A model generated the notes under the pieces. That model saw only the letters and a program-made list of their open reading frames with translations. It was not told where the DNA came from and made no database searches. A stretch of 26,990 bases of DNA from a virus. The stretch covers positions 1 to 26,990 of the IMG/VR virus record IMGVR_UViG_3300025483_000058; one strand, 5' to 3'. Of the stretch, positions 3,165 to 25,812 are shown one piece after another (within the stretch, counting starts at the first letter, position 1; each line of letters begins with the position of its first letter). Position numbers and translations under genes: made by a program.

Positions 3165-3437
3165 TTATATACCAGATGGACCCCATCCGTCGTTCTCGGG
3201 GACAGTATCATCATCGTCCACCTGATCGACAGATGCAATGTCGCACACAGGCACCTCATGATCACCACCAATCAAATACCAGTGCATCATCTGCCCGTGG
3301 TATTCAGGATGTGCTTTAAAACTTTCAGGATAGACACGCTTACCGATATAGCTTAGTTCGCTTTCTGGAATACTTTGATCACGTAACATTGCTTGCATTT
3401 GCAAGTGCATCAACTCGGGTTGCGTAGGAATTTTCAT
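3165..3437 (-). CDS. Unknown phage protein (90 aa)
   Basis: Starts MKIPTQPELMHLQMQAMLRD and ends with an acidic stretch (DQVDDDDTVPENDGWGPSGI). The middle holds HPEYHGQMMHWYLIGGDHEV, a hydrophobic patch rich in His, Tyr and Trp. The frame can be extended to a GTG at 3461, but that codon lies in the -10 region of the promoter at 3460-3488, so ATG 3437 is the likely start. It is the first gene of the small-gene run. The acidic tail is a common feature of DNA-mimic or protein-binding phage peptides, but that is only a possibility. Confidence 0.7.
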   Translation of the reverse strand: MKIPTQPELMHLQMQAMLRDQSIPESELSYIGKRVYPESFKAHPEYHGQMMHWYLIGGDHEVPVCDIASVDQVDDDDTVPENDGWGPSGI

Positions 3438-3449
3438 TGCGCTCTGCTG

Positions 3450-3461
3450 GTGTCTTGACAC
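3450..3461. promoter_or_regulatory. Short inverted repeat at the start of transcription
   Basis: GTGTC-TT-GACAC is a perfect 5-bp inverted repeat with a 2-base centre. It covers the downstream edge of the -10 box and the expected transcription start of the promoter at 3460-3488. Its position would suit a repressor or activator site, but no regulator is encoded nearby. Confidence 0.3.
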
Positions 3462-3488
3462 ACTAGCATGATGTCAGAGCACTGTCAA
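3460..3488 (-). promoter_or_regulatory. Sigma70-like promoter for the small-gene unit
   Basis: TTGACA (3488-3483, perfect -35) and TAGTGT (3465-3460) are separated by 17 bases, with TGC before the -10 as in an extended -10 element. The ATG of the 90-residue gene lies 22 bases downstream. The -35 box contains the TGA stop codon of the preceding oxygenase gene. Confidence 0.6.
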
Positions 3489-4105
3489 GACCATCTAGGA
3501 CCAACGATCCATCCAACTAGTGACTTTCTACATCCAGACTTGACTTTTCTCACTCTATGCATTGTTCTAGCATCAAAGACAATCATTCTACCTCTTGCCT
3601 TTGGAGCAGTCATTAATTTACCAGCATCCAAAAACTGTAACTCACCACCATCATAATCATCAGGACCAGACAGTTGCAATGAGAATGCTAACTTCCTCAC
3701 ATATTCATGCTCTACAAAGGATTCATTAGATGCGTGATTGTACTTAGAACTAGGAACAAGATTTGGAGTATATTCTGTATAGAGGTGTTGATCTGGATGC
3801 CAATGATAGAACTGACCCTCATTATACTCAGTATATTGAATCATTTCAGTATCATAAGACGTTATGTTGTATCTAAAGTTACGTCTATTTGCTGCTTGAA
3901 TCCAATACCAAAGCATTGGTCCAATCCAAACATCAGTTGGGATATAAGAAACCAATGAATCTCTTTGAGTACTAATATGTTGTACTTCACCATCTGGTCT
4001 GAATACAGCACCATCTTTGACAGGATAATCATGTCCTAATTTTATAATTTCATCAACTACCACATCAGGTAGTCTCGTATCAAATTCAACTGCAAATTCT
4101 GCCAT
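3485..4105 (-). CDS. 2-oxoglutarate/Fe(II) dioxygenase, prolyl-hydroxylase-like
   Basis: A 206-residue protein of the double-stranded beta-helix 2OG-Fe(II) family. The iron triad is H103, D105 (HWHPDQH) and H183 (DARTMHRV). R193 (GCRKSLVGW), ten residues after the distal histidine, is placed to bind the 2-oxoglutarate C5 carboxylate. A GGELQF turn at 153-158 precedes the core strands, as in P4Hc/PiuC-type enzymes. Such enzymes hydroxylate protein side chains or small molecules using oxygen and 2OG. It is the last of the run of six genes that begins at 7606, and its ATG overlaps the upstream stop as TAATG. The substrate is unknown; tail proteins are a reasonable guess from context. Confidence 0.85.
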   Translation of the reverse strand: MAEFAVEFDTRLPDVVVDEIIKLGHDYPVKDGAVFRPDGEVQHISTQRDSLVSYIPTDVWIGPMLWYWIQAANRRNFRYNITSYDTEMIQYTEYNEGQFYHWHPDQHLYTEYTPNLVPSSKYNHASNESFVEHEYVRKLAFSLQLSGPDDYDGGELQFLDAGKLMTAPKARGRMIVFDARTMHRVRKVKSGCRKSLVGWIVGPRWS

Positions 4106-4905
4106 TAAATGTCCTCAAAATCATATACACACATCGACTCAAATTCTACTCTTTCGATTGCTTTATCAACCCACAGATACTTCAATGTACCATGTTGCAT
4201 CCTAAGACAGTTATCGACAATGAAATCATAGTTCTCTTGAGTGATGATCTCATCATTTAACAATACATCATAGAACTCTCTCTTTTTACTGAGATAATGT
4301 CTCTCATCTCTTCCCATTGCAACATCAGAATTGGTTATTTGATATGGTGTGTTGTCATGGATGTGAATTGAAAATCTATTGGTATCTGTTAGATCAAACC
4401 ACCACTTTGCATGGAAGAATCCAAAGTGGTTAGTAACAGATTTTCTAATCTTTTCGAAGTTTTCATAATCTGCAAACTCTTCCATGTGTTCGAGTTCCTT
4501 CGTTCCCATACCCATACTCAAATACTTTGGAGTGCCATCGGGAAGAAAATAGACACTGTTACCTGCCATCTTAACACCTTTGTCACGCAATGATACTAAC
4601 GCTACAGGTTCTGTGCTCATGTTGAGGATTTCTCTCACTCTAGAGTCATATTCAAATGCAGCAAAAGAAAGTTCATAACCATATACTTGCTCTAAGTCTG
4701 GAGTATAAAACTTCTTTATACCATCAATTTGTTTCCTAGCAATATGAACAATCCCCTCCAACTGCTTCATTGTTTCCAAACAAGCGTCTGGAACAGATTC
4801 ATTTGTCATAGAAATGTATCTGTAGGGCGTCATCTTGGCATAAGAAATCTTCTCCTGTGTTTCTAAATTGAAGATATTAAACCCTCTATGATAATCTTTC
4901 TGCAT
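4105..4905 (-). CDS. Unknown protein within the oxygenase cluster (266 aa)
   Basis: I do not recognise this protein. It begins MQKDYHRGFNIFNLETQEKI and is soluble, with no signal or membrane segment. A striking stretch at 160-184 (HFGFFHAKWWFDL and FSIHIHDNTPY) is rich in aromatic residues and histidines, including H181-I-H183-D184. That arrangement could bind metal, but it lacks the distal His and Arg pattern of the neighbouring oxygenases. GGAG lies upstream of the ATG. Its stop shares a base with the next oxygenase start, and it follows another oxygenase after two bases. Tight packing between 2OG enzymes suggests a partner, substrate adaptor or second enzyme in the same process. Confidence 0.75.
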   Translation of the reverse strand: MQKDYHRGFNIFNLETQEKISYAKMTPYRYISMTNESVPDACLETMKQLEGIVHIARKQIDGIKKFYTPDLEQVYGYELSFAAFEYDSRVREILNMSTEPVALVSLRDKGVKMAGNSVYFLPDGTPKYLSMGMGTKELEHMEEFADYENFEKIRKSVTNHFGFFHAKWWFDLTDTNRFSIHIHDNTPYQITNSDVAMGRDERHYLSKKREFYDVLLNDEIITQENYDFIVDNCLRMQHGTLKYLWVDKAIERVEFESMCVYDFEDI

Positions 4906-4907
4906 TG

Positions 4908-5426
4908 TTATACTAGCTCCAGTTTCCAGGCTACAGTCTTTCGCAATCCGCCAAATGTTCTTGTAGGTTCTTCAGCAAAGTGTTTGATTTGACCAGGGAA
5001 ATATACTGCTTTATTTATTTCTGGGGTGACCCATACTGGTCCATTGTCAAATATGAAACATGTCTTACCATTCCATCTAACATCCCATGCACCATTAGCA
5101 TACCACAAGAAAGTTCTTGCCCTTTCATCATATCCATCTTCATGTGGTTGCCCACCCAATCCATATGTCTGACCGTTAGCATAAACTGATAACACTTTAA
5201 AATCATCACCAGTTGCTTCACGTATTGGTTGAACTAAAGTTTCTGCAAAGAGTTTATCTCTTCCAAGTTGCATTATCCAAAATGGTGGAGCATTTGTGTT
5301 ACCCGATCCAGTAACATGTCCATATCTCCACAGTGGTCTTTCTAAAAAAACATTAATAGATTCACGGTGCTCTTCAGAAAATACATTTCTAAAAATACGA
5401 ATATTATCTGAACTAAAATTGTGCAT
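4908..5426 (-). CDS. 2-oxoglutarate/Fe(II) dioxygenase
   Basis: A 172-residue 2OG-Fe(II) oxygenase. HxD is at H95-D97 (GGQPHEDGYD), the distal histidine is H149 (PGQIKHFAEEP), and R162 (LRKTVAWKL) is the likely 2OG-binding arginine, 13 residues later. The sequence FLWYANGAWDVRWNGKT and the edge strands are typical of small phage and bacterial family members that keep little beyond the jelly-roll core. It overlaps the previous oxygenase gene by 14 bases and the next gene follows after two bases, so all are probably translated from one late mRNA. The substrate is unknown. Confidence 0.85.
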   Translation of the reverse strand: MHNFSSDNIRIFRNVFSEEHRESINVFLERPLWRYGHVTGSGNTNAPPFWIMQLGRDKLFAETLVQPIREATGDDFKVLSVYANGQTYGLGGQPHEDGYDERARTFLWYANGAWDVRWNGKTCFIFDNGPVWVTPEINKAVYFPGQIKHFAEEPTRTFGGLRKTVAWKLELV

Positions 5427-6066
5427 ATTCTCGTATCAATTGATATCTTGTCCTTTCAAGATCAGCAACAAGCTCTACATCTTTAAGTTTATCATAGTTT
5501 TTAATAATTGTCATTGAATAGTCATTGATAACCTCTCTAATTCTACTGTCAGAAATTACTGATTCCATCCATATCACCATGACTCGTCTCTCACCAGAAG
5601 TAATTTCATTAACTTTGTGATAGACACCAGTTGGATATGCTACACAGGATCCTGCGGGTGGTTTGTATTCAAGTTCTTTCCCACCAACATTTAATATCAA
5701 CTCTCCTCCCTCATATTCATCTGGATCATTGAGAAAGATCGACAGACTATAATCTGTTCTCACTTCATTCATGCAATAAAAATCATTATGATATTTGTAA
5801 TGCATACCCTCTGTATATCTGAGAAACAAAGGGGGAGTAGTAGCTCTAGGAACTAGAATGTAGTTCAATGATTCAGACTTTTTTATCTGATTATCAGCAT
5901 ACTCACATAACTTAGGACCATGCACAAGATCTTGTATCTGTTCATTCCATTTTACAGACTTGTCTTGAGAACCAGTAATAGACCCATCTACAAAGTCACA
6001 GATTTTGTAGTATTCGTTTATAGTATCAAGTTGGGTTTCACTTAAAACTTTAATAGTATAGATCAT
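5413..6066 (-). CDS. PKHD/PiuC-type 2OG-Fe(II) hydroxylase
   Basis: The clearest oxygenase of the set. Over 217 residues it shows the PKHD-hydroxylase (YbiX/PiuC-like) pattern: LRYTEGMHYKYHNDFY with H93 and D95, SIFLNDPDEYEGGEL (109-122), YPTGVYHKV with distal H150, and GERRVMVIWMES with an arginine at 160/161 for 2-oxoglutarate. The C-terminus (DYSMTIIKNYDKLKDVELVA) is the helical part seen after the core in this family. Members act as Fe(II)/2OG hydroxylases. Cyanophages often carry homologues, with substrates not established. It lies 16 bases downstream of the chaperone-like gene and overlaps the next oxygenase. Confidence 0.9.
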   Translation of the reverse strand: MIYTIKVLSETQLDTINEYYKICDFVDGSITGSQDKSVKWNEQIQDLVHGPKLCEYADNQIKKSESLNYILVPRATTPPLFLRYTEGMHYKYHNDFYCMNEVRTDYSLSIFLNDPDEYEGGELILNVGGKELEYKPPAGSCVAYPTGVYHKVNEITSGERRVMVIWMESVISDSRIREVINDYSMTIIKNYDKLKDVELVADLERTRYQLIREYAQF

Positions 6067-6082
6067 TATATTGTCAATAAAT

Positions 6083-6979
6083 TTAATCTTCTACGTGCAA
6101 TAACTCCATTCTTAAATCTGGGAAGAATCCCCAAGCATCGAGAGTTTCCAATAGTTCATAATATTTACGTGTAATCTTTACAGTATCATCATGTCCTTTA
6201 TTTACATATTCCAGGACATTAACAATATTGTTGGTGACAAAATCAGTAGATGCGTTGAAGTCTAGTTTAGTGAATTGATCATCTGTACCCATATATTCTA
6301 CTGAGTTACCATCTGCATCCTGACCATTTGGATACATTTTGAAATAATTATTTGGATCAACCGCAAACTTACATGTTGTTGCAAACTTAAATGCTTCGTA
6401 TCTATTTTCAAACGTATCAATATTTGGTAGAAGATCTCTCAAATGCTGTCTCCACGTCTTCCACATTTCTAATTCACCATCAAACTTTTCTTGATAGTCT
6501 GGAAGCATTCTCCAATCAGAGAAGAGAAGCATAGAACGTACTTCAATAGTTTTCTTTACATATTTTGATTCATAGTAATACTGATAATCAATCAGTTTCT
6601 TACTATCTGCAATAAATTGAGATGTTTTCTCGTGCTTTTGTACTTCAGCTAGAGAATCAAAGAGTTCATATATCCTATTTGCTTCATCATTCGATGCTTC
6701 TGGATAGTTATAACTTCTCCAATATTGATTTCCCTCTGAGTCAGTGACAATTTTTTTCTTTTGGCAGAGATACTCTCCACCCCAGTAGAAAATAAGATAC
6801 TCGATCTCATCCTTATCTGGAAGATGCCATTCAGATCCTAGATTTGGAACAAGAAGATTGTTCCAAACATCTTCTTTCAACCAAACAGCTCTATGTGGAG
6901 GTCTAACGACTACCTTATCCTTAAAATTTACTTCAAGTTTAACTTCCTTAGAAATTACTTTCTCGTTTTTGTTAGTCAT
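6083..6979 (-). CDS. Putative tail-fibre assembly chaperone-like protein
   Basis: A 298-residue soluble protein. Residues 148-190 (RSMLLFSDWRMLPDY … MWKTWRQHLRDLLPN) closely follow the pattern of the phage tail assembly chaperone domain (PF16778-like: a short helix, SDW-x-x-LPD, then W-x-x-W/YRQ-x-LRD). Those domains occur at the end of tail-fibre assembly proteins that help fibres fold. The flanking regions are not recognised. The gene abuts the upstream oxygenase with no gap (stop TAA directly before ATG). Its presence between fibre genes and oxygenases fits a role in fibre maturation. The domain call comes from motif resemblance only, so it is moderate. Confidence 0.55.
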   Translation of the reverse strand: MTNKNEKVISKEVKLEVNFKDKVVVRPPHRAVWLKEDVWNNLLVPNLGSEWHLPDKDEIEYLIFYWGGEYLCQKKKIVTDSEGNQYWRSYNYPEASNDEANRIYELFDSLAEVQKHEKTSQFIADSKKLIDYQYYYESKYVKKTIEVRSMLLFSDWRMLPDYQEKFDGELEMWKTWRQHLRDLLPNIDTFENRYEAFKFATTCKFAVDPNNYFKMYPNGQDADGNSVEYMGTDDQFTKLDFNASTDFVTNNIVNVLEYVNKGHDDTVKITRKYYELLETLDAWGFFPDLRMELLHVED

Positions 6980-7606
6980 TTAGGGAATCTGCAAATACCA
7001 TCCAGTCAATATGTATTTATCTTGGGTGAAGACTGTGTTACCCTTATGAACGTGTGTCATTCCAGCAGGCCATATAGTTACTGTTCCTTGAGTTGGTCTG
7101 ATACGTCTTCTCTGATGCAAAAACTCAGTCTCTCCTTCACCTTCGGGAATGTCATTCAAATAAATTGCCCAAACTAGTTCTCTATTACAGTGATGATAGT
7201 TTTGACTCTCATAATGCCAGACATGATATCCACCCTCAGGTTGTGTCTTCTGCATTTTAACATCACTTGAAAATAATTTTATTGACTTAAGTTGAGAATA
7301 CTTATCAATGTAATGTAATGAACATGCTTGCAAATATTGATTAATGCCAGTAGCAATTTCAACACTACAAGAATTCAAGAGTATAGATGTATCATCTCTT
7401 CCTAGTTTCTTTTGGTGAAATTGCGATTCACCATCCATCGTGACAATTGATGATGTGCTGGACAGTCTCTCGAATTCGTTAATAATTTTTTCGCACAGAT
7501 ATCTTGGTACAAAATTTTCCCAAACGCCAATAAAATCGTTGAACTCAAACTTTGTGAGTTCCTCATTTTTCATTAACTCAAGAGGTTTAATAGGTTGTAA
7601 TGCCAT
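6980..7606 (-). CDS. 2OG-Fe(II) oxygenase-like protein with HxE and Lys
   Basis: A 208-residue prolyl-4-hydroxylase-like protein. The proximal motif is H131-Y-E133 (GGYHVWHYESQNYHHC), so glutamate replaces the usual aspartate. Distal histidines are H185 and H187 (AGMTHVHKG). K197 lies exactly ten residues after H187, in the position where collagen-type prolyl hydroxylases use lysine to bind 2-oxoglutarate. The beta-strand pattern (LVWAIYLNDIPEGEGETEFL) matches the family. It is the first gene of its unit, 21 bases downstream of a CTAAATA late promoter and directly after the glycine-rich collar gene. Activity may differ given HxE. Confidence 0.8.
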   Translation of the reverse strand: MALQPIKPLELMKNEELTKFEFNDFIGVWENFVPRYLCEKIINEFERLSSTSSIVTMDGESQFHQKKLGRDDTSILLNSCSVEIATGINQYLQACSLHYIDKYSQLKSIKLFSSDVKMQKTQPEGGYHVWHYESQNYHHCNRELVWAIYLNDIPEGEGETEFLHQRRRIRPTQGTVTIWPAGMTHVHKGNTVFTQDKYILTGWYLQIP

Positions 7607-7626: not shown

Positions 7627-7633
7627 TATTTAG
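7627..7633 (-). promoter_or_regulatory. T4-type late promoter (CTAAATA)
   Basis: The minus strand reads ACTAAATATTTTATACTG, with CTAAATA 20 bases upstream of the first oxygenase ATG. The motif matches the late promoter element of T4-like phages and cyanophages, which is a lone -10-like box. It overlaps the stop codon of the preceding collar gene. It implies that the oxygenase unit is transcribed late, with the virion genes. Confidence 0.55.
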
Positions 7634-10600
7634 TATGCCTTAATTATGAACTTTGCTGAGAAAAATGGTTGGATTAGAGGAATAGTTCTGTTTGGTTTTA
7701 ATTTAACAGTTGGAATCAATGCCTTCGATGAATCTAGTTGGAACTGTCCAATGTTAATTCTACTACCCATTTCAGTATGGTTGAATTCTACTCCAGTGGT
7801 AGTACCTCCACCCATGCCACTAGTTTTTGCTCCAGGACCATTTGTGTTACCCCATCCATATACTGTTGTTAAATCACCAAAATCAGTGTCAGAAAGATAA
7901 TGTGAGTGGGTCAAAGTTCCACCTGCAGGTGCATACAAACCAACGGTTGCAGTAGATTCTAGAGTATCCAATGCTCCAAGCCATCTGTTGTCACTGCCAC
8001 CAGTATTCTCTAACTGCAAACTACTGTCTGTTGGTGATGCCCACCAGTTTGTGTATGAAATACTAAAGTTCCAGTCAGAGAAGTTGGATCCTGGTGCATC
8101 AGGAACACCAGGATAGTCACTCAAGTTATTGTTATTAAGCTCTTTGTTGGGACCATATACAGCTCTAGCATTCCAGAACAAGAGTCCAGTATTTACATCC
8201 AAACTAGTAGCACTGAGCATGTCATGAGTATGAGCAGGAATATCAGTTAGAGTATCAACTAATGGTCCAACAGCAGTAGAGACATTTCCTTGAACATTAA
8301 AATTAATACTACCAGATATACCATCATATCCAGTTGTTGTGACATTACCAATGCTAAAGAATGAACCCGCAGTACCTTCCTCATCACCATCACCATCATC
8401 TTCTATCTGTTCTAGTGGTAGTGGTCCGCCTGCATCTACAGTATCAATATACCAATCACCACCAACAGATCCAGCTGTTTGTCCAGAACCAGTTCCAGAT
8501 AATCCAGGAGGAGCAAATCGTGTAGGTGCAATAGGAGAGGCAGAAGAGTTTCCATCTACATTACCACTTCCAAACATTCTTCTATTTCTTGTGTCAGGAA
8601 GATTGAAGTTTCCAAAGTAAGTAACAGTTTGACCTGAGACAAACTTTTCTCCATCACCACCATATCTGTTTCCAATGACTTCCCATAGATCTGGATAATT
8701 AAGAACAGATAATTGTTGTCCAGCACATTCAATAAATCCAGGATATCTGGAATCTAACTCACCATCTAATTGTCCCCAGTTACCCTGAGAATCTCTGAAA
8801 ATACTAATAATAGTTCCAATTGCCAATCCATCCACTTTTGTTCTTGGAGTAGCATTATACCACGTCGATTTATCATTTCCCTCTGGAGATGATGCTAATG
8901 TATCTACAGTCCAGGTATCCTGAACTCCACCAATACTAACTGTTATAGATGTTGTTGGACTTCCAAAACCTGATGTCTGTAATCTCAAACCAACAGGATC
9001 TCCTGGTGTGTATGAACCACTGTATGGAACAGTTTGCCATGTAGATCCACCATCAAAACTTACCCCATGATTAGTAGCTTGCTGTGCATTTACGGTAACA
9101 ATTATAGGAGCAGATGATGTGATTCCAGCTGGCACAATAGTATTACTATAAATTAAACTATTTGCAAACTGATTAGTTCTATCATTAAATGTAAATTGAT
9201 CAGGTACAGTATCACCAGCAGTTCCTGTAATGACTCTCCAATCATCTGTGAAAGCACTAGCAGCTTCTCCAACTTTAATAAATGCAAGTTTGTTGTCATT
9301 TGGTTGAGAAGGAGAAGTTGTCCTAATTTGTAGAGTTTCTGTATTTGCAACTTTAGTAGTAGCATCTGGTGTTACCCAAGCACCGTTACCAATTTTAATT
9401 TCGTAATCTGCTGCAGTACCACCCTGCTCAGTAATACTAACCAAAGCAGGAGTGTTTATACCAGTAATGTTTTGCACATTACTCTCAATTACTGTGCTGA
9501 CAGCAACATTTGCAGCATCAAGGAAGTTAAAAGGATCTGGGTTATCATCGATAACCAAAATAGTCGTTACATCCCAATCTACAATAGATCCAGATCCAAC
9601 AGTTACAAATGCTGTGCTAACAGTATTAACTGTAGATCCAGAAGACATTCTTATTTGTAATTCTTGACCATTTGATATGGTGGCACTACTTGCATTCTCA
9701 TCAACTCCATCGAGAATGATTGATGCAAATTGATTTGCCAATCCGTTAATTGTTGCTGTCACACTGACCACAGCATCCTCTGTGAGACCAGTAATTACAG
9801 CAACGTCACTAATAATATCTGTATCTAATGGTTGCTCATCAACATCAGTAAAATCAAATGGATTAGGAATCAACAGTGGAGGATCTTTAGTTACAATGCT
9901 CCATTGAGCATCAACTGTTTCTCCTGTATCTCCCCAAGTCAAAATTGCAGTTTTTACTGTTGTATATACATTAGAAGACACCATAGTAAGTTCTAATTCG
10001 TCTCCAACAACAACATTTGTTGTACTTCCTACATTAACACCATTTTTTATAATTTCAGCGCCATTGTTAACACTACATGGAACTTCAATATTGATTCCAC
10101 TAACTAAAACTGAATCAACAGTTGTATATTGTGTGTTAATATCGGCACCATTTTTAGTCTCAAAATTTAATACTGGATTTGGATTGCCATCTTCACTGTC
10201 GTATGTAAATGTTACATATCCATCTTGACCTGCAGCAGATTGTCCTCCACCAGTACCAATGCTAGAAACAGCAATAATGGGTGCAATTAATCCAATAATA
10301 GAATTGGTGTGATATGAAGGATTATAATAACTTCCTCCACCACTACCACCTTGAGCATTCTGATCATTTGATGGAGTAGCTCCAGCAGCACCACCAGGGG
10401 TACCACCACCACCACCGCCACCAGCAGGACCATCTAGAACTGTAGATCTTGTAATATCGAAACTGTTACAGTGGTCTCCACTAGGAGAAGTACATGCTCC
10501 ACAAGTATCATCACTACACCAACCATAAGGACTCTCACCTCTTTTTGTTCCAGGAGTCCATCTATATCCACCTGTAACAATTTCGGTTGCTCCACTTGGA

Positions 10601-11316
10601 GGAGTGTCGTAATAAATTGTTGTTCCATTCCATAAAATAACTAATTTTCTGATTCCCTCAGTTGGATTATCTTCAGGAGCTCCAGTTCTTGTATACCAAC
10701 CATTATTAACATTTAAACAAAGAGGATTCTGGTTCAATCCGCCACTAGCTGTTTGGGTTTGACTACTACCACTGCCACCCGCAAAGTTTGATGCATTACT
10801 ACCATTCTCTAAAACGGCATTAGCAGAAAATGTCTGATTAGCATTAGTACCATTTTTATTATACGATACAGCACCCAGAGTACCAGCACCACCAGCGCCA
10901 CCACCGCCACCTGCAATTACAATATATTGATTATTGGTACTATCAAAAAAATAAGAAGCAGCACCACCGCCTCCTCCACCACCAGAAGCAGCGGAGTTTC
11001 CAGCATTACCACCGTCTCCACCATTTCCAGAACTGGTTCCAGTAGATCCTCCGTTGCCGCCACCAGCACCAACTAAGTTACTAACTCCACCACCGCCACC
11101 ACCGCCAACATAAATGGTGAGAGTGTTACCTGCGGTGACATACATCGATCCAGCAACTCTAACACCACCACCACCAGTTCCACCTGCAGATCCAACATCG
11201 CTGCCCGATCCACCTCCACCAGCTCCATGAATCTCATAATCGAGATATTGAACGGTAGGAGGAACTGTGAAAGTATAAGAACCTGGACTGTTGTATGTCT
11301 CTGTAATTGCTGGCAT
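7630..11316 (-). CDS. Glycine-rich tail-collar/fibre adhesin (1228 aa)
   Basis: A large virion protein with clear layers. Residues 30-150 and about 295-335 are glycine-rich (many GGGG and GGGGGGG runs), as in polyglycine-II-type receptor-binding tips of T4-like adhesins. Four Ig-like repeats of about 110 residues start near 379, 485, 597 and 705 (signature P[DN]PFNF … I … DDW-V-T). A phage tail collar domain (PF07484-like) spans about 829-905 (GTIISIF, PGFIECAGQQL, FNLPDTRNRR). Two H-x-H motifs follow, AHTHD near 1028 and THSHY near 1136, like the metal-binding histidines of T4 gp12/gp37. It ends FSAKFIIKAY. It probably sits at the baseplate or fibre tip and contacts the host surface. The ATG lies two bases past the upstream gene's stop. 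Confidence 0.85.
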   Translation of the reverse strand: MPAITETYNSPGSYTFTVPPTVQYLDYEIHGAGGGGSGSDVGSAGGTGGGGVRVAGSMYVTAGNTLTIYVGGGGGGGVSNLVGAGGGNGGSTGTSSGNGGDGGNAGNSAASGGGGGGGAASYFFDSTNNQYIVIAGGGGGAGGAGTLGAVSYNKNGTNANQTFSANAVLENGSNASNFAGGSGSSQTQTASGGLNQNPLCLNVNNGWYTRTGAPEDNPTEGIRKLVILWNGTTIYYDTPPSGATEIVTGGYRWTPGTKRGESPYGWCSDDTCGACTSPSGDHCNSFDITRSTVLDGPAGGGGGGGTPGGAAGATPSNDQNAQGGSGGGSYYNPSYHTNSIIGLIAPIIAVSSIGTGGGQSAAGQDGYVTFTYDSEDGNPNPVLNFETKNGADINTQYTTVDSVLVSGINIEVPCSVNNGAEIIKNGVNVGSTTNVVVGDELELTMVSSNVYTTVKTAILTWGDTGETVDAQWSIVTKDPPLLIPNPFDFTDVDEQPLDTDIISDVAVITGLTEDAVVSVTATINGLANQFASIILDGVDENASSATISNGQELQIRMSSGSTVNTVSTAFVTVGSGSIVDWDVTTILVIDDNPDPFNFLDAANVAVSTVIESNVQNITGINTPALVSITEQGGTAADYEIKIGNGAWVTPDATTKVANTETLQIRTTSPSQPNDNKLAFIKVGEAASAFTDDWRVITGTAGDTVPDQFTFNDRTNQFANSLIYSNTIVPAGITSSAPIIVTVNAQQATNHGVSFDGGSTWQTVPYSGSYTPGDPVGLRLQTSGFGSPTTSITVSIGGVQDTWTVDTLASSPEGNDKSTWYNATPRTKVDGLAIGTIISIFRDSQGNWGQLDGELDSRYPGFIECAGQQLSVLNYPDLWEVIGNRYGGDGEKFVSGQTVTYFGNFNLPDTRNRRMFGSGNVDGNSSASPIAPTRFAPPGLSGTGSGQTAGSVGGDWYIDTVDAGGPLPLEQIEDDGDGDEEGTAGSFFSIGNVTTTGYDGISGSINFNVQGNVSTAVGPLVDTLTDIPAHTHDMLSATSLDVNTGLLFWNARAVYGPNKELNNNNLSDYPGVPDAPGSNFSDWNFSISYTNWWASPTDSSLQLENTGGSDNRWLGALDTLESTATVGLYAPAGGTLTHSHYLSDTDFGDLTTVYGWGNTNGPGAKTSGMGGGTTTGVEFNHTEMGSRINIGQFQLDSSKALIPTVKLKPNRTIPLIQPFFSAKFIIKAY

Positions 11317-11320
11317 GGTC

Positions 11321-12199
11321 TTATATTTTAATTATGTATTCGACAATTATGAAAGGAGCTACCACAGTATCAAAAGTAACTGGATCCTTTACATCTATAG
11401 TTATCTCTGTTCTGATATTACTTGCTGGAATTTGTGTTGTTGGATAAGTGTATTGCATGTTGGAAGTATAGTCCAACGGGGATGTTGGAACTACAAGTCT
11501 ATGAGTGTGTGAAGCACCTGTTACAGTTGTATCATCTGGAGCAGAAATTCTGTAAAGTAAATTACCAGCAAATGGACGACAATTGTTGCCACTGTAAGAC
11601 TCAGAAGCATCAGTTGGACCAATTCCAGGAGAGACAACATAATTACCAGTACAGTTGAGAACAGCCTGGTTACCTGTATGTCCATGTCCCTGATAGTGCT
11701 GATCTGTAATGATAGCAGTTGGTGCATTTTCAGGTCCTGTAAATAAAGGAAATCCTTCTAGATCATCAGTAAAAGTATCAATTGTAAAATTTCCAGAATA
11801 AGAAATATTTTGAGTTGTTCCTATATTTGATCTAACATCAAATTCAGCACCAATTCTTGGTGTTATACCATCAGATAAATTTTGAGAAAGATATGTTCCA
11901 CTAGCAGCTCCAGGTACAAGATATTTTGCACCGATGTCTGGTAACTGAAACTCATCATCTGCCATCTCATCAGGTATCTTAGCAAATTTAGAGTCAGATC
12001 CTAATCCAAGAACTTCTGCCAATGCTGGATATAATTCTTGTTTCAATATAGATCCATCACATCTCAAAAATCCTGCAGGCAATTTTGTTCTAAAATCTCC
12101 AAGATCTGAGAGATTTGCACTAGGTAAGTCAGTGGTAAATATTTGGATACTTCCTACTATGCCACCGTATTTTGCTTTTTGTACTGCGTAATTCGCCAT
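11321..12199 (-). CDS. Phage tail-collar protein (292 aa)
   Basis: A short-fibre-like protein with an N-terminal collar domain: MANYAVQKAKYGGIVGSIQI, then LPAGFLRCDGSILKQELYPA (about 40-60) and FQLPDIGAKYLVPGA (about 84-98). This is the CDG … YP-x-L … LPD pattern of PF07484 (T4 gp12-like). Two H-x-H motifs (QGHGHTG near 172, SHTHRL near 232) probably coordinate a metal in the trimeric tip. It ends VEYIIKI, like its two neighbours. The gene shares one base with the stop of the preceding collar gene (TAATG). It is one of three tandem collar paralogues, probably alternative or co-assembled fibre tips. Confidence 0.88.
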   Translation of the reverse strand: MANYAVQKAKYGGIVGSIQIFTTDLPSANLSDLGDFRTKLPAGFLRCDGSILKQELYPALAEVLGLGSDSKFAKIPDEMADDEFQLPDIGAKYLVPGAASGTYLSQNLSDGITPRIGAEFDVRSNIGTTQNISYSGNFTIDTFTDDLEGFPLFTGPENAPTAIITDQHYQGHGHTGNQAVLNCTGNYVVSPGIGPTDASESYSGNNCRPFAGNLLYRISAPDDTTVTGASHTHRLVVPTSPLDYTSNMQYTYPTTQIPASNIRTEITIDVKDPVTFDTVVAPFIIVEYIIKI

Positions 12200-13488
12200 T
12201 AATATGCCCTAATAATGTACAAAACAACCAGTTTTGGTGTAGGTATAGTTGTAGTAATATTTAGTGCTCCTGGTAGATTATTTGGCACCACATTAGAAGT
12301 TACATTTGTAGCAAGGTTTGAAGGAACTCTTAGTGTAGAGTCATTGTCACTATACTCAATTTGAAACGTTTGGTGGTCATGTGCTTCAATTTTTTGAGTT
12401 GGTTGTCCAGCAGGAGGATTATTTACCACATTGAAGTCAATAGCTGAACTATTAAAGAAAACCTCATATGGTAGATGTGCTTCATTACTTCCAGAACCAT
12501 CTCCATGGTTAAAAGAACCATCATCATAGTTTCTATGAGTTGTCTCAACAGGATCTCCACCTAAACCATATGGTGCCTGTTGACCAATTTCGAATTTTTT
12601 ATTTGCTGCTGCAAAGTTTGGTTCTCTAAGTGGGTCTGGAACGTCAGGTGCATCATCTCGACCAATCCAATTAGAAATACCGTGAGAATATACAGTTCTT
12701 GGTTTTAAGTTACTTGGTGGAATTTCCGATTGAACATTACCAAGAACAACTCCAGGACTTCCATTTCCTAATGCAGTACCATTTGGTTCCGAGAAACCAC
12801 TAACTCTGATCTCAGTTGGAAATATACCAAGAAAATCGTCAAATGCTGCCTTGAAGAAGTCATATTCAATTTCTCTAGAGCAAGAAACTCCAGATCCAGG
12901 TTTAGTACTATTAATACCTGCAATAGTTGGAACACTAGTTGGGTGAGTATGAATTGGCATATGCCTTCTACCCAGTTTTCTACCGCCTGTATATAATGTT
13001 CTAACTCCTACACCAGGATCAAATACTTGGTCCTCAATTCTTCCACTAAAATCACTCTCTGGATCATAAGTGAATAAAATATCTGTATTTGCATCAGATA
13101 TTCTGTTTGGAGCTCCATTATCAGTATTAGCACCAATAAATCCTCCTACGACTGCTGCTGCTTCTGCAGTATCAATCGCAGATTCAATAGCATTAGCACC
13201 AAAATAATCTGTTTGAATATCAGCAAGAGATTTTTGCGAGATATCAGGTAAAAAGAATTGATGAGTTGGATTGTTTATATTCCAAGGAAAATCAAGAACA
13301 CTAAATCCAGGACTAGCACCATAAGTTTCACCAATTGCTTGTGCTAGCAATGGGTAATCCCTAGAAGAAACTCCTGCTCCATCACAAATAATCCAACCCT
13401 TAGGTATCTCAGACAAGGATCCCGTCCATGGCATGATAGTGCCAATGGACGAAGCCTTCATCGTTTTTATTGCTCCGTAGTTTGCCAT
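12199..13488 (-). CDS. Phage tail-collar protein (429 aa)
   Basis: Opens MANYGAIKTMKASSIGTIMP and has a tail-collar domain in residues 14-95 (IPKGWIICDGAGVSSRDYPL, IGETYGAS, FFLPDIS). Past it, HMPIHTHPT near 178 and EAHDHQ near 369 give two H-x-H motifs like those in T4 gp12. The C-terminus LVVLYIIRAY matches the ends of the other two collar proteins. It starts directly after the giant structural gene (stop TAA next to ATG), so it is translated from the same late mRNA. Likely role: short fibre or baseplate-tip protein that binds the host surface, as a trimer. Confidence 0.88.
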   Translation of the reverse strand: MANYGAIKTMKASSIGTIMPWTGSLSEIPKGWIICDGAGVSSRDYPLLAQAIGETYGASPGFSVLDFPWNINNPTHQFFLPDISQKSLADIQTDYFGANAIESAIDTAEAAAVVGGFIGANTDNGAPNRISDANTDILFTYDPESDFSGRIEDQVFDPGVGVRTLYTGGRKLGRRHMPIHTHPTSVPTIAGINSTKPGSGVSCSREIEYDFFKAAFDDFLGIFPTEIRVSGFSEPNGTALGNGSPGVVLGNVQSEIPPSNLKPRTVYSHGISNWIGRDDAPDVPDPLREPNFAAANKKFEIGQQAPYGLGGDPVETTHRNYDDGSFNHGDGSGSNEAHLPYEVFFNSSAIDFNVVNNPPAGQPTQKIEAHDHQTFQIEYSDNDSTLRVPSNLATNVTSNVVPNNLPGALNITTTIPTPKLVVLYIIRAY

Positions 13489-16400
13489 TTAGATTTCCAT
13501 CAACCACCAACCAACAGCAGTGCTTGGTACGTTACTAGCACCACCATCACTATTTATTGGTCCCGCATAAACTAAACCGAAAGCAGCATTTGGAGTTGTT
13601 ACAATCAATTCACCACCATTGTGCTGTGATAGATTAACACCAATTACATCAGCAGCGACGTTGGTAGCATCACCCTGAATTGGTACGCCAGTTCCAGCAC
13701 GAATAATCAACTTAAGATCATACTTGAGGTTACCACCAATGTCAATGATTCTGACCATATCACCATTAGCTGGTGTTTGAGGCAACTTAATATACAGATC
13801 TCCAGTTGCATTGGTGAAGTAGTTAATGTTAGGAGTTATTACTCCAGCATCACCACCAGCAATTGTAACATAATCCCATCTTCTTGCTCCAGTTGGACCA
13901 TAGAAGTACTCAATGCCACCAAGATCAACAGTTCCGTTATCTTGGACCTTGAAGATCTTATTGCCATTACTATTGACAGTTAGATCTCCACCGTTGATAA
14001 CTAGGTCACCAGCAAATGTATTTTCTCCTAGACCATATGAGAAGTATTCACCAGCAATCTCAAGTTTTCCTAGATTGTTGGAGAAGTGGAGTCTGTTATT
14101 GGTATCAGCAGAGTCTCTGACTATTAGATTTCCGCCCTTGATAGTGGTGTTACCAGTATCATCTTCAACCAAGAACTTATTGAATCCAGCACCAACATTA
14201 AGATCACCAAGGATTCTAGTGTTACCTTGAGCACTATCTACATCAAATACAACCGTAGGGATGGTATCACCGTCCGTGATGATTAGTTTTTGATCACCAG
14301 GAGCAGTAGATCCATGAATAGTTGTAGTATCAAAGATATCTGTAGTTCCTCTGATAAACGTGTTACCAGTTGTTGATTCAACTTGGAATGTTATGACTTC
14401 TGGATCACCACCATCGTTAATGGTGAATTTCTGAGTAGATGTTAGAGAAGTGATTAGAGATTCAATCTTCAAGAATTCATTATCATTGATTCTGATGTAA
14501 TCACCTGCTCTTAGAGATCCACCAAATTCAGCAGTTTCTAAGATAGAATCAACGTTAGTAAGATTATCTTTAGAGAAACTTACATTCTCACTCTTCTCAA
14601 TTCTAAAGATTGGTGTATTGTCAGCATGAACTCTTGCTACAGTACCATCAACACCTCTTTCAACCTTAACACGAATACCTTCAGGATCGGTTATATCACT
14701 TAAGTTAGTAAGTTCAATAACTCTAACTAATTCTGATGCTGTTTCTTGCGTATCTGTTCCACTAGCAAGTAGTAGATAATCACCCAGTAGAATTTGTCCA
14801 ACTGAATTAGCACTCAATCTAATGAATTCTTCAGATACTGGCATGTTAGCAACACCTTGAGTATCAAGAGTCTTTCCACCAATATCAATCTTCTTGTAAA
14901 GATCCAAGTTGAAATTATCTGGTAATCCACCTGCAGGCTGACCTACAGCAGGAGTTCCAAAAACACCTCTAATAATATTGACACCGCCAGCATTCAATCC
15001 ACCGTTCTGTTGGATATCTCCATCAAAATCTGCTCTTGCTTTTACATACAAAGCATTGTTGATTGTTGTTGTTCCGCCAACACCACCAATATCGAGAGCA
15101 GAAGCAGTTGTAGCAAGTCTAACAGTAGAAGGTCCGCCACTAGCAGTTAGGAATTCAAATCTAGAATTCAAGGAGAACAATCTTCCAGTTCCAGCACCAG
15201 AAGTATATCCAGAACCAACCTCAACATCACCATCTAGAGAAATGTTCTTATTCTGAATGGTAAGTTGAGATCTCGAACTTGAGAATGCTCCACCAATAGT
15301 AATAGTAGAACTATAACTGTCATTTAGATTAGAAACTGTTCCGATATTAATCGTAGAATCTTGTGAGTTTCTATGAACGTTCAGAGTTGTAACTTCAGAT
15401 TGATCACCAAATGTTAAGGTTTGATTTTGTGCATAATTACCAAACTGGAAACTCATTGTCTCGGTATTGGTCAATTCATTAGCAAACTGGATGTTGCTTG
15501 CATTCATGATGAACCTGATTGTCTCAGGTGTATTCATCATATCAAGTGTTCCGCTGGTAGTGTCGATATCACCAACGAAGATTTCTAATCCACCATTAAC
15601 CTGAAGATTGCCAGTGATGTTAGTAGATCCAATGATAACATGATCTGTTCCGATTGAATTTAATTGATCAAAAGTAGCATTAACACTCATTCTACCTTGA
15701 CCAAATGGTCCAGGAGTTGTAGAAATACGGAATGCTGCGATCTCGTCTGGACTTTCACTATTTCCACCAACCAACAATGCATGGTCTTGATTGGTAAGCG
15801 TTCTGAACTGTAGTCCTTCTCTCAAGAATCTAAGAACCTTCTTACCACTTATAAATGTGTTACCAACAACATCAAAGTTTGCACGAGGTTTAGTGAATAG
15901 AGGATCATTCCAAGCATTCTTAGCAGACTCCCATGGAGTTCTTGCGACGGTATTAACACCAACCTTAAAGTCTCCCCATAATTCAGTTTCAGTTCTGATT
16001 GATTCTGCACCAATAACTCCAAGTTCCTTCCAATTAGAATTAGAGAATTCAACTGTTGGAGCATCACCAGTTGCACCAGAGACTACAGTATCCCAAACCA
16101 AAGTTTGAGCACCAACAGCATCAATTGCTTGGAAATGTAGATAGTTATTATTTCCATTAAACGCATCTCCAGGAGGAGAATAAATCGTCCAGGTTAGGTT
16201 GATTGATGGTTCTGGGTAGAAGTTCGTAAATCTGATTTGAGAAGCAGAAGTAATTCCTAGTTGAGAACATGTGATATCTATTCCACTATTGACATCAACG
16301 AATGTAATCTTGACGACATTTGTGTCATCAAAGATGATATTACCAATGCTAGTATTTGCAATGGTGGTGAAGTAATTAGATAGAATCCACCCCATGGATC

Positions 16401-19400
16401 CTGTGCTTCCAACCTCAGAACCCTTAAACAGGACATCTCCAGATCTTGGAATATCACCATTGTAATTAACAAGTTGTTCGGGGAAGACTCTAGATCCTTC
16501 GAGAGCAGCATTGGGGTCTGAAGGAATCTCTGGAGATTGGTTTGGTGATAAGTTTGATGGAACACCCCCAACAGTGTGAGTCAAGAACTTATATTCTTGT
16601 CCCTGTCCTCTAGAATTGAATCCAAAGATTGCAGATTGAATTCTATTCTTACCGATTCTGATATCGCCTCTGTTAGGATCAGGCAACCATCCAGTTCTAT
16701 CAAGACTCTCATCTTGCTGATCAAAGGTTACAGGATCAATAGAAGAAACATAAGAACGAATGATTAGAGAATGACGTTCTTGGGATAGATCTCCGTCCTG
16801 TACAGCAATGAGAATAGGAGACTCAAATGTATTAGTGAGTTGTCCCTCACCACCAACAACTGTAATGTTTTGGTTAAACGTTACAGGTGTATCGAAGGTG
16901 GTAACGAGACCGCCTATTACGTCCTCATCATCGCCATCATCTTCTAGGATTGCAGCATCGATGAATGTCTCTTCACCAGTGATAGCGTTGATTCTTCTGT
17001 TACCGATGTAAAGATCACCCTGAGAGTTGATACCCGTGTAGAAGACGATACCAGCGTCTTGCTTCTTCGATTGTGCGTAGAAGTCCTCTTCTGGTGTTAG
17101 GACGATCTCCTGACGCGCTGGGAGACCTGTGGAGTAGTTACCAGGACCGAAACCAAGATACTCAAATGTATGGTTACCTGCACGAGCGATAGATGGTCTT
17201 CTAAGTTCAACGTAGTAACGCTGATCTGACATGACCATGCTATCACCAGAAATAGGAATGAGACGATCTTCTGAACCAGAAGTTGCATTACCCTTTTGTG
17301 CTCTAACTCTGTTGTCAATTACATTTCCGTTACCATCAGAGGTTGTATTAGTATATTCATTGTTAATGAACGCTGGTTGATCAAATAGATCCTCAACCAA
17401 TTCTTTGGTTACAGAGTTTTTGTAGTCATTAGTTGTAACTAAACCATGAACATAGTTGTCAGCAGCAGAGAATGTTGATGGTGGGTCAATTAGTAATTCA
17501 TAGTATGCTTTTTCCTTACTAGAAGTACCATTCTTCTTAAACCAAAGAGGATCGTTCTTGTAGTTTAGTGGATATAGTCTGCTAACTGGTTGCGAGAATT
17601 TATACTTCTTAAAGTTATCAGCAACACCAGCACCAGTTGGGAATGGTGAAACATTACCACGGAGTGCAGTTAGATAGTAGACACCATCTTGCTGACCAGC
17701 AATTCTGCGCTGTAGTGTCTCATAACCAAAGATATAGAAGGTATCTTCAATAATACCTGCATCTTCGACGCTATAAACATAGTATTCAACGCCTGCACTA
17801 TCCTGAATACGATCACCAGGAGTGATGGTATAAATGTTAGCGCCGTTTTGCTTGTAATAATACTCAGGATAATTTTTTCTGATTAGTGTTTTCAGAGGTA
17901 GAGATTTGCCCATATCCTGGTCTTCCAGCATATCAGCAAAGACATTACCTTGAGTAAATCTAGTATCATAATACTCACTATACTCAAGTTTGCCACCACG
18001 GATGTTCTTGATGATTAGATAGTGATCACCACCAACACTGTAGTATGCATGAATATTAGCGAGACCAGAAGAATTACCAGTGAAAGCAACTTCGTTCGCA
18101 GTAACACTTTGTGTCTTACTTACAGTGAAATCTCCGCCCTGAGGTGCAGTAATTTTAACTGTAGTAAATACTTCGTTTCTTAGACCAGGGAAGTTGATCG
18201 CATCAACAGCATGATCAAAGACCGTTAGTTCTAGATACTTGATTGTAGGATCAAGAGTGTCCTCAACATATCTACCACTTTGGATGGAAGCTTGAATACC
18301 AGAAGCAAACTTAGCATACTGGATGTAGTTGATACCAGATCCAGTCAAATCCTTCTTATAAGGATCATATGCAGCATCAAGGTTTAGATTGTTATCAGCA
18401 AAGTCCGTTTTGGTGTAACCAATGTATTCATCTGCCTGAACTGGGTTGCTAAAGCGAGCACCATAAACAGATCCAGTTACAGGTTTGAGTAGGAGTTTCT
18501 GTGGAACAAGTTTTCTGGTGTCGTCAGTTCTTGTTTTAAGAACGAAACCATTGATAGGATCTCTAGCATTCTCAAGATACTTAGGAATGACATATCTGAT
18601 CTTATAGGTTCTCTCATCCTTGTCGCGATCATCCTCGACACGCTCGAACCACATGTCTGTAGTCTTAGGTCTATCGCCATAGTCACTCAGTTGAATTCTG
18701 GAGAAAATATTATCAGGAGAACTACTTTCATCTCTACACTGGATAAACCACTTACCAGAATCAGTTGCAGTATCAGTAAAACCAGGATCAAATTTTACAG
18801 GACTTCTTCTCTTGTTAGCATATACTTCAAACTCAATAGAAGTCTGACCAGATCCAAACTGAATTGGATTTACATTATTGATAGCATCCGCATGTGTTTT
18901 GTGGATGGTGAATACTTTGTTGTTTTGATAACGAGCAAAGAATTCTTTGACTGGATTAATTTTTCCTAGATTTGCATTATTTGGATCAGTTACTGCAACA
19001 TCAGAATCATTTTCGAAAGTAGTAGAAACTGCTGGTAGGGTGCCACCAGTAATAGCTCTGAAGAATACCTTTTGAGGAGTTACAGAAGCGAATGGTACAT
19101 CAAAGATGTTGGAGATATTAGTCTCAATACCAGCATTTACCGTGTTGGTTAGATTACAACTATACTTGTGTAGATCATAAGTATCATCAGTTAGGAACTG
19201 ATAGATATCAATTTCAATGTTTGGATCAATACCTTCAGTCTCAGAAGCATAGATGTAGATACCTGCTGCAGCATTCTCCTTAGAAGTTGCAAGCATCAAT
19301 TTCGTTTGATCACTACCATTGAAGAATGTAGTGTTACTATAATCTTCTGGTTGTGTTCTTCTACCAGGAGAAATTACATAGTATGTTCTATTGGTCTCGA

Positions 19401-25128: not shown

Positions 25129-25194
25129 TTATTTATAACGGGGTCTGTACCTATCTTTGAGAATAAGCATTAATGCTATTTCTTTAAGACACAT
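25129..25194 (-). CDS. Possible micro-gene (21 aa)
   Basis: In the gap before the giant gene, ATG 25194 opens MCLKEIALMLILKDRYRPRY plus a final Lys, then TAA. It has a short hydrophobic helix and a basic tail. GGA lies about nine bases upstream. The stop codon lies within the TATAAATAA late promoter. This could be a real leader peptide or chance. Length alone gives no statistical support. Confidence 0.25.
   Translation of the reverse strand: MCLKEIALMLILKDRYRPRYK
25130..25137 (-). promoter_or_regulatory. T4-type late promoter (TATAAATA)
   Basis: The minus strand has a perfect TATAAATA, the T4 late promoter consensus read with the gp55-type sigma factor, 40 bases upstream of the giant structural gene's ATG. 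The sequence between has no other gene. Its position in front of the largest virion gene makes it a convincing late promoter for the block ending at 11321 or beyond. Confidence 0.75.
25166..25177. repeat. 12-base perfect palindrome
   Basis: AGCATTAATGCT is a perfect inverted repeat with no spacer, between the oxygenase gene stop and the late promoter. No T-run follows on the minus strand, so it is not a standard terminator. It might bind a dimeric protein, or be chance. Confidence 0.3.
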
Positions 25195-25807: not shown

Positions 25808-25812
25808 CGTCT

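Follow-up and report, generated by a model that had tools for sequence, protein, structure and literature searches.

The locus at positions 3485-7606 of the IMG/VR virus record IMGVR_UViG_3300025483_000058 is best read as a late-expressed module for the tailoring of tail fibres, a reading to which we give slightly less than an even chance (a probability of roughly 0.47). The whole stretch analysed (the window), from a marine virus of cyanobacteria, has 26,990 bases, and its proteins match those of Kyanoviridae, the T4-like cyanophages. The locus encodes four 2-oxoglutarate (2OG)-Fe(II) oxygenases, here A to D, a tail assembly chaperone and a protein with a predicted prenyltransferase (PT) barrel, all six open reading frames (ORFs) being verified at their coordinates and lying tightly packed on the minus strand behind a series of fibre and collar genes. 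The reading is carried by the gene order, the protein families, complete catalytic motifs, the covariation of A with the tip of the adjacent fibre and the conservation of promoter-like motifs, together with predicted folds.

Conservation of the fibre-oxygenase-chaperone core

The fibre-A-chaperone core is an old module. The comparison took in 86 loci that encode a close relative of A, namely 80 IMG/VR loci, 5 phage records and the window, with redundant contigs kept in the set. A fibre of the type of short tail fibre 1 (STF1) lies directly before A in 85, with gaps of -4 to 44 bp, and the chaperone lies directly after A in 85, with gaps of -28 to 10 bp. The two exceptions are cut contigs, one of which begins at A (L077) and the other ends behind it (L074). 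The loci were fetched through A, so that its presence is no result and it is the constancy of its neighbours that counts as one. Many of the loci are cut short; B is present in 67, C in 55 and the PT-barrel family in 35. The STF1 match is weak in some loci (down to about 1e-7), indicating that other fibres occupy the slot there.

The genes of the window run on the minus strand in the order CpeT, oxygenase E, giant fibre, STF2, collar, STF1, A, chaperone, B, C, the PT-barrel ORF, D and a protein of 98 amino acids (aa), with the following coordinates and matches (E-values after family or domain names).

25813-26331, minus strand: CpeT gene, adjoining oxygenase E
25217-25816, minus strand: E, a fifth 2OG-Fe(II) oxygenase, next to CpeT and immediately before the giant fibre gene (PF13640, 3.5e-6)
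25130-25137, minus strand: TATAAATA, octamer resembling a late promoter, 48 bp before the ATG of the giant fibre
13489-25089, minus strand: giant fibre protein of 3866 aa, with similarity to the Sf-CH1b short tail fiber ORF
12199-13488, minus strand: STF2, short tail fibre with collar domain (phrog_4591, 3.9e-85; PF07484, 2.7e-12)
11321-12199, minus strand: tail collar protein (phrog_4714, 1.4e-65; PF07484, 3.9e-6)
7630-11316, minus strand: STF1, short tail fibre with Gly-rich N-terminal and collar domains (phrog_4924, 4.6e-124; PF21722, 1.7e-7; PF07484, 2.4e-7)
7627-7633, minus strand: CTAAATA, overlapping the STF1 stop codon
6980-7606, minus strand: A, prolyl-4-hydroxylase-like 2OG-Fe(II) oxygenase (PF13640, 1.3e-8)
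7014-7021, minus strand: GATAAATA, late-promoter-like octamer that falls in A codons 196-198 and lies 42 bp before the ATG of the chaperone
6083-6979, minus strand: tail assembly chaperone (phrog_4697, 5.4e-55; PF16778, 0.0013, below cut-off)
5413-6066, minus strand: B, PKHD/PiuC-type 2OG-Fe(II) oxygenase (PF13640, 2.7e-13)
4908-5426, minus strand: C, small 2OG-Fe(II) oxygenase family (PF13640, 7.6e-4; phrog_274, 2.3e-23)
4105-4905, minus strand: former orphan, predicted PT-barrel (ABBA prenyltransferase fold) protein, from its predicted structure
3485-4105, minus strand: D, 2OG-Fe(II) oxygenase of T4-GC 412 type (PF13640, 7.2e-13)
3165-3461, minus strand: conserved 98-aa protein downstream of the unit, of a family with 27 matches in the loci scanned

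The window thus has the Kyanoviridae fibre-module order giant fibre-STF2-collar-STF1-A-chaperone. An earlier note on this DNA had counted three collar or fibre genes before the unit; such genes do precede it, and they are four if the 3866-aa ORF, which shares 44% identity over 2874 aa with the Sf-CH1b ORF annotated as a short tail fiber protein, is counted among them. In ten named phage genomes chosen through A (S-PM2, Syn1, S-CAM1, S-CAM3, S-CAM4, S-RIM32, S-H9-2, ACG-2014e, ACG-2014i and Sf-CH1b), the fibre-oxygenase region (T4-GC 734-743 in S-PM2) runs fibre-A-chaperone-B-C, followed by a small gene and a gene of 700-990 bases at the place of 4105-4905. The window differs from these genomes in having no small gene between C and the PT-barrel gene and a GC412-type D behind the latter.

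Oxygenases are concentrated in this region. In the ten genomes, 45 of the 67 PF13640 matches (E <=0.01) are no more than 5 kb away from the fibre cluster, where 3.9 would be expected on the basis of length, and 35 of 57 are so placed when the ten matches of A are excluded; the p value of 3e-39 for this clustering is not to be taken literally, as the genomes were chosen through A and orthologues among the ten are not independent. A further 34 loci, fetched through D, held 21 A-type ORFs (E <1e-20), seven of them in fibre-A-chaperone order.

Distant A-type oxygenases that stand outside the fibre-A-chaperone order occur in loci L096, L100-L107 and L110-L116, most of them as tandem fusions with oxygenase genes of D or B type. 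A Pfam search with the 98-aa protein at 3165-3461 gave no match. Positions 496-1302 of the window encode an N6/N4 DNA methyltransferase (PF01555, 3.5e-36), which has matches in several related loci.

Families of the oxygenases

The four oxygenases reported in the earlier note were confirmed, with PF13640 above its cut-off in A, B and D and complete motifs in all four, including C, and its tail-assembly-chaperone-like protein is the ORF that matches the phrog_4697 'tail assembly chaperone'.

Oxygenase A is a relative of the prolyl-4-hydroxylases (P4Hs), and its solved relatives are peptide or protein prolyl hydroxylases. Its motif consists of H131-x-E133, H187 and K197, of which H131, H187 and K197 are invariant and E133 is present in at least 90% of 48 aligned sequences; the iron motif is HxE rather than HxD, with H128 as a possible alternative ligand. 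Searched against the PDB, the A profile matched bacterial P4H (3e-11) and PBCV-1 P4H (3.5e-9), the best five matches being prolyl 4-hydroxylases (3e-11 to 8.8e-7). The predicted model (pLDDT 85.6) aligned with P. putida P4H (Z 20.1), PBCV-1 vCPH (19.8), PHD2 (19.6) and algal P4H (19.2), and nearly all of the 50 fold matches listed were prolyl hydroxylases. A resembles the known P4Hs (P. putida P4H, PBCV-1 vCPH, B. anthracis P4H, Cr-P4H-1 and PHD2; Z 20.1-17.6) in fold, in profile and in a distal His followed ten residues on by a Lys, a spacing presumably the same in collagen P4Hs. It differs from them in HxE instead of HxD, in an identity of 13-20% and in the position of its gene beside a phage fibre. 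The predicted P4H-type fold and the profile similarity place A among the putative peptidyl prolyl hydroxylases.

Oxygenase B is a PKHD/PiuC-type hydroxylase, with H93-x-D95, H150 and R160 invariant in 22 sequences and a family profile that aligns over its full length with solved PKHD-type proteins, PiuC included (best E 2.3e-42). It differs from PiuC, whose context we take to be a bacterial iron-uptake locus, by its place beside phage fibres, and one subgroup in the loci has only about 160 aa.

Oxygenase C falls below the PF13640 cut-off in the window (7.6e-4; 20.8 bits against 27). Its relatives exceed the cut-off in W03, W04, W05, W07, W08 and W10 and fall below it in W01, W02, W06 and W09, the Syn1 relative scoring 33.1 bits. 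In 23 aligned sequences H95-x-D97, H149, R156 and R162 are invariant, with R156 or R162 as the Arg of the 2OG motif, and the profile gave no significant match among solved structures (best OGFOD1, 0.08, and PHD2, 0.21). The family is labelled 'DNA endonuclease V' in PHROGs (phrog_274) and in RefSeq products, a name that is probably wrong for proteins that look like 2OG oxygenases with an invariant triad.

D and E belong to the 2OG-Fe(II) oxygenase superfamily by PF13640 score and triad, E only just (3.5e-6; 28.3 bits against the cut-off of 27). D has H103-x-D105, H183 and R193 invariant in five sequences, 37% identity to Syn1_072 and, among solved structures, only a partial PiuC match (7e-8). 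The motif of E, read from its translation, is H128-x-D130...H176...R186, and E gave no match to solved structures. E flanks the fibre cluster on the side opposite to A-D and is absent from the unit described in the earlier note. A PF13640 match lies within 2.5 kb upstream of the giant fibre in seven of the ten genomes, as in the window; an annotated oxygenase stands between CpeT and the giant fibre in S-PM2 and S-CAM1 and directly before the giant fibre in S-H9-2. In sequence, E resembles these upstream genes weakly, the best tblastn match having an E of 0.001 (in Sf-CH1b).

The C-terminal end of phrog_3531, named 'ferrochelatase', weakly matches D, B and A (3e-6 to 0.002), suggesting that some cyanophage 'ferrochelatases' may be oxygenases; the one Syn9 'ferrochelatase' scanned had no Pfam match.

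Covariation of oxygenase A with the fibre tip

Covariation of oxygenases with fibres, a check proposed in the earlier note, was found for A beyond its neighbouring genes, while B and C showed little of it once A was fixed. The comparison used 42 non-redundant loci (A at most 97% identical), two loci without STF1 or chaperone having been dropped. Partial Mantel correlation between A and the STF1 tip was 0.53 with B as the control (29 loci), 0.74 with C (25 loci), 0.34 with the collar protein (24 loci) and 0.35 with the chaperone (36 loci), each with p 0.001. The chaperone also correlated with the tip when A (0.52), B (0.67) or the collar protein (0.33) was controlled for (each p 0.001). For the PT-barrel protein the values were 0.15 with A held fixed (p 0.09), 0.12 with B held fixed (p 0.15), 0.39 with the chaperone and 0.41 with C.

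When each pair was controlled for all the remaining genes, in the 23 loci that have the full set of five, the partial correlation was highest for STF1-A (0.49), followed by A-B (0.39), chaperone-C (0.36), A-chaperone (0.34), STF1-B (0.26), STF1-C (0.09) and STF1-chaperone (0.07); how closely the chaperone is tied to the fibre tip varies with the set of loci used. The adjacent pairs chaperone-B (0.08) and B-C (0.0) were low in the same comparison despite their adjacency, so that adjacency alone does not give the covariation of A with the fibre. Recombination history may contribute to it, and linkage as its sole cause is made less likely.

Median pairwise identity in the 42 loci was 0.58 for A, 0.46 for C, 0.40 for the collar protein, 0.36 for both B and STF2, 0.32 for the chaperone and 0.28 for the last 250 residues of STF1. 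This fibre has a C-terminal HxH (residues 1137 and 1139) in 41 of the 42 loci, followed by conserved prolines at 1202, 1208 and 1213; we take the HxH to resemble the metal-binding motif of the T4 gp12 head.

Late-promoter-like motifs

The late promoter that the earlier note had seen in CTAAATA survives in part. The heptamer is present at 7633-7627 and late-like motifs are conserved across loci, but the heptamer overlaps the fibre stop codon, is kept at the exact STF1-A junction in only 9 of the 42 loci and occurs three times on the minus strand of the window against 2.84 expected, a chance level at which it was rejected as evidence by itself. In the 70 bp that precede the gene, YTAAATA is present for A in 27 of 42 loci, for the collar gene in 5 of 25, for STF2 in 3 of 23, for B in none of 34 and for C in none of 28. 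The octamer NATAAATA, presumably the cyanophage late motif, lies within the same distance of A in 8 of 42 loci, and with either motif allowed the counts are 5 of 25 for the collar gene, 5 of 23 for STF2, 0 of 34 for B and 0 of 28 for C. The motifs before A are mostly inside the 3' end of STF1.

Before the chaperone, NATAAATA is present in all 42 loci, as GATAAATA in 39 and as AATAAATA in 3, starting 19-63 bp from the ATG and spelled by the D/N-K-Y codons of A. Lys197 of A is encoded by AAA in 42 of 42 loci, against 19 AAA and 11 AAG for the conserved Lys117 in the 30 that were pattern-matched. Free synonymous choice would leave the octamer intact in 28 of 42 (p 3.8e-8 if the loci were independent, which they are not fully). 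Judged by motif and position, the octamer is a candidate T4-type late promoter of the chaperone gene. The octamer before the giant fibre (TATAAATA) is the only one on its strand, against 0.8 expected, and is weak alone.

A protein with a predicted prenyltransferase barrel

The ORF at 4105-4905 had been described as an orphan, and by itself it matched nothing in annotated phages and only two near-identical contigs in IMG/VR. Through intermediates it proved to be a member of a fast-diverging family present at the same position in many cyanophages, the relatives carrying only hypothetical names (T4-GC 743 in S-PM2; phrog_4851). The AlphaFold2 model, built with 22 sequences (pLDDT 86.4, pTM 0.86), has ten strands in five hairpins. 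A Foldseek search of the PDB gave PT-barrel prenyltransferases for 50 of the 50 matches listed (best E 3.7e-6, TM 0.41-0.59), and VIA-align gave Z of 14.9-11.9 over 213-241 aligned residues among the 50 matches listed, with 14.9 for an NphB-type protein, 14.8 for AmbP1, 12.7 for DciF, 12.4 for PatF and 12.1 for KgpF. The best five matches in a viral structure library were proteins of the cyanophages ACG-2014e, S-RIM44, S-CAM1, S-CAM3 and S-RIM32. These matches argue for a PT-barrel fold; the claim concerns the fold, as a prediction, and not prenyltransferase activity.

The protein shares its predicted ten-strand barrel with the ABBA/PT-barrel prenyltransferases (NphB, AmbP1 and CloQ; the cyanobactin enzymes PatF, KgpF and DciF; and LimF, matched in the Foldseek list only). 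It differs from them in an identity of 4-10%, in an alignment that starts at target residue 36 or later and in having no diphosphate pocket conserved through the family. Comparison of profiles by hhalign gave a probability of 0.1% to the cyanobactin-PT alignment and to one Orf2-type protein, and none of the 22 family members matched a PT family in Pfam or NCBIfam, for which reason the protein is not filed as a prenyltransferase. A scan of cellular sequences with the A6 member, based on two short patterns, found no relative.

Positions 167 and 242 are K or R in 86% and 77%, respectively, of the members with a letter there. From strand alternation in the model, the faces that bear these residues probably lie in the barrel lumen. 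The family is the fastest-evolving of the genes compared (median identity 0.23, for detected relatives only). That the protein is a degenerate oxygenase was also considered and rejected, as the OGFOD2-like hit is weak (0.11), the HIHD motif is not conserved in relatives and the predicted fold is a different barrel.

The chances are evenly balanced, independently of the odds given to other readings, that the protein is not an enzyme but has put the barrel to a new use, as a chaperone or adaptor specific to the fibre. In favour of such a non-enzymatic role are its divergence, faster than that of the fibre tip (0.23 against 0.28), the replacement of the basic residues at 167 and 242 in the Syn1 and S-CAM4 types and the missing profile match to prenyltransferases. 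Against it, the clades of the window, L011 and A6 keep both residues, which probably face the lumen, and prenyltransferase families share little sequence among themselves. Titles and abstract openings on cyanophage prenyltransferases, in a partial coverage, contained no phage prenyltransferase or such fold.

Oxygenases and halogenases in other cyanophages

Ten further cyanophages gave no match to the phrog_4714 collar family, in a search without positive control that does not prove its absence, and the chaperone family was at best weakly present, in two of them. The A profile has matches in seven of the ten; at E 0.001 it found nothing in P-HM1, P-HM2 and S-SM2. Syn9, S-SM1 and P-HM2, examined because PF13640 matches cluster there, all have oxygenase genes that follow fibre genes at some kilobases. 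In Syn9 the first of these is about 9 kb from the last gene named fibre and 5 kb from fibre assembly; in S-SM1, the genes named T4-GC 240 (of A type) and 412 (of D type) begin some 4 kb past fibre genes that belong to other clusters (345 and 346); and in P-HM2 the oxygenases lie 2 to 6 kb behind fibre genes.

Between fibre assembly and the oxygenases, Syn9 encodes two tryptophan halogenases (PF04820, 1.4e-99 and 5.1e-105; L254 8966-12071), and the oxygenases behind them include 2OG_5 and JmjC_2 types. Halogenase matches were found in 78 phage records, four of which were examined: Syn9, S-RIM44 (L259), S-WAM1 (L260) and P-TIM40 (L261). The halogenase of S-WAM1 stands behind fibre and fibre-assembly genes, with two oxygenases after it. 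S-RIM44 has two halogenases apart from its fibre cluster, behind a structural gene of 10.5 kb, with 2OG or JmjC domains in four of the seven proteins scanned behind them. P-TIM40 has a similar layout, with genes of no functional annotation before the halogenases and 2OG domains in two of the three proteins scanned behind. Halogenases stand behind fibre, fibre-assembly or structural genes and before 2OG or JmjC oxygenases in three of the four records. These banks (P-TIM40 by layout) resemble the window in having 2OG oxygenases placed after fibre, fibre-assembly or structural genes, and differ from it in that PF04820 halogenases and oxygenases of JmjC_2 or 2OG_5 type take the place of the A-B-C set. 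We know of no natural substrate for the viral halogenase.

Proposed mechanism and alternative explanations

For substrates, chemistry on the fibre, timing and effect we infer the following course. Late in infection, the fibre and collar genes and the genes behind them would be co-transcribed, aided by late promoters embedded in STF1 and in A, each at the 3' end. Oxygenase A, being of peptidyl-prolyl-hydroxylase type, would hydroxylate the newly made, adjacent gp12-like fibre STF1 or the fibre-chaperone complex, most likely at prolines, and the chaperone would help the folding or attachment of the fibre. B, C, D and E could hydroxylate other sites on fibre and collar proteins, and the PT-barrel protein may modify the fibre chemically or serve as a dedicated binding partner, with possible effects on the stability or receptor binding of the fibre surface.

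The suggestion of a fibre-modification system made in the earlier note is thus favoured over metabolism by the fibre-A-chaperone order, the clustering of oxygenases near fibres, the protein or PKHD-type hydroxylases among the relatives of A and B, the covariation of A and the late-like motifs. Several findings weigh against it. In the ten module genomes 22 of the 67 PF13640 matches lie away from the fibre cluster, and of the 21 A-type ORFs in loci fetched through D, 14 stand outside the fibre-A-chaperone order (8 adjoin a D-type ORF, 5 precede another oxygenase-type ORF and 1 follows a giant-fibre-type ORF). The view that the A family as a whole is strictly bound to that order was therefore rejected for distant relatives, which makes fibre tailoring, its most extended form included, slightly less likely and a metabolic or cargo role slightly more so. 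A strict tie of oxygenases to the collar module was likewise rejected, as all ten further cyanophages, none of which gave a phrog_4714 match, carry PF13640 matches (3-12 each). Given A, partial Mantel correlation with the STF1 tip is low for B (0.17, p 0.05) and C (0.19, p 0.01), and A is the most conserved protein (0.58) although the fibre tip is at 0.28, so that A may act on something conserved. The loci and genomes were chosen through A, and their orthologues are not independent. In S-SCSM1, with 24 2OG oxygenase genes whose functions were not specifically investigated, the parts of the report consulted name no oxygenase among virion proteins, a result with no bearing on virion proteins as substrates (Wang et al. 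2022).

A competing account, unlikely on present evidence, is that the late fibre region is a site for cargo genes and that the late targets of the oxygenases and of the PT-barrel protein are on the host surface or are small molecules (pigments, lipids, cell wall). It is consistent with the methyltransferases, helicases, CpeT and many hypothetical genes around the fibre cluster, with the many enzymes of small aromatics among the listed relatives of the PT-barrel protein, with the fast evolution of that protein and with the other contexts of distant A relatives. The constant adjacency of A and chaperone among close relatives, unlike that of cargo, and the partial covariation of A with the fibre tip speak against it.

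A metabolic role, as auxiliary metabolic genes, is rather less credible. The oxygenases would draw on or respond to 2-oxoglutarate and so tune host nitrogen status and respiration, a proposal for which the portion consulted of Sullivan et al. 2010 (PMC3037559) offers 2OG-FeII oxygenases in 14 of 16 genomes, NtcA sites and PhyH-type core genes; a figure in a 2023 review, seen in part, places the family among auxiliary metabolic genes of photosynthesis and carbon metabolism, and many oxygenases do lie away from fibres. A sink for 2-oxoglutarate would, in contrast, need no bank of diverged, substrate-specific enzymes, and clustering with fibre genes in the module genomes, the tracking of the fibre tip by A and nearest solved relatives of A that act on proteins or peptides also argue against it. 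Both the 2OG/nitrogen proposal and the published proposal of DNA repair fit the gene context less well than fibre tailoring does. Repair or modification of phage or host DNA or RNA by AlkB- or TET-like action is highly improbable: the part seen of Sullivan 2010 (PMC3037559) refers to a role in DNA repair, with Weigele 2007 as its source, databases name C 'DNA endonuclease V' and the C profile has insignificant matches to DNA N6-methyladenine demethylases (E 0.5), but its best solved matches, OGFOD1 and PHD2, are likewise insignificant (0.08 and 0.21), the matches listed for A and B are protein or PKHD hydroxylases with no AlkB or TET among them, and the genes adjoin fibres.

A table in Mizuno et al. 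2014, a source consulted in part, lists 8 Fe(II)-dependent oxygenases under host recognition, without a mechanism. Titles and abstract openings on phage hydroxylation or dioxygenases together with tail fibres, covered in part, held no proposal of fibre tailoring.

Implications for cyanophage host recognition

Genes for 2OG oxygenases are common in cyanophages, lack an explanation and tend to be classed as metabolic. If those beside the fibre genes tailor fibres, post-translational chemistry would be a layer of host recognition that sequence comparison misses. The PT-barrel assignment provides a testable biochemical lead for an unnamed family, and together with the halogenase parallels it makes a broader tailoring cassette worth testing. 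In its most extended and distinctly doubtful form, virion tailoring would resemble that of ribosomally synthesised and post-translationally modified peptides, with fibres serving as the precursor, hydroxylated by 2OG oxygenases, prenylated by PT-barrel enzymes and, in Syn9-type phages, halogenated at Trp before chaperone assembly. Should this hold, the receptor-binding surface would be diversified by chemistry and not by sequence alone, and phage halogenases would gain a natural substrate.

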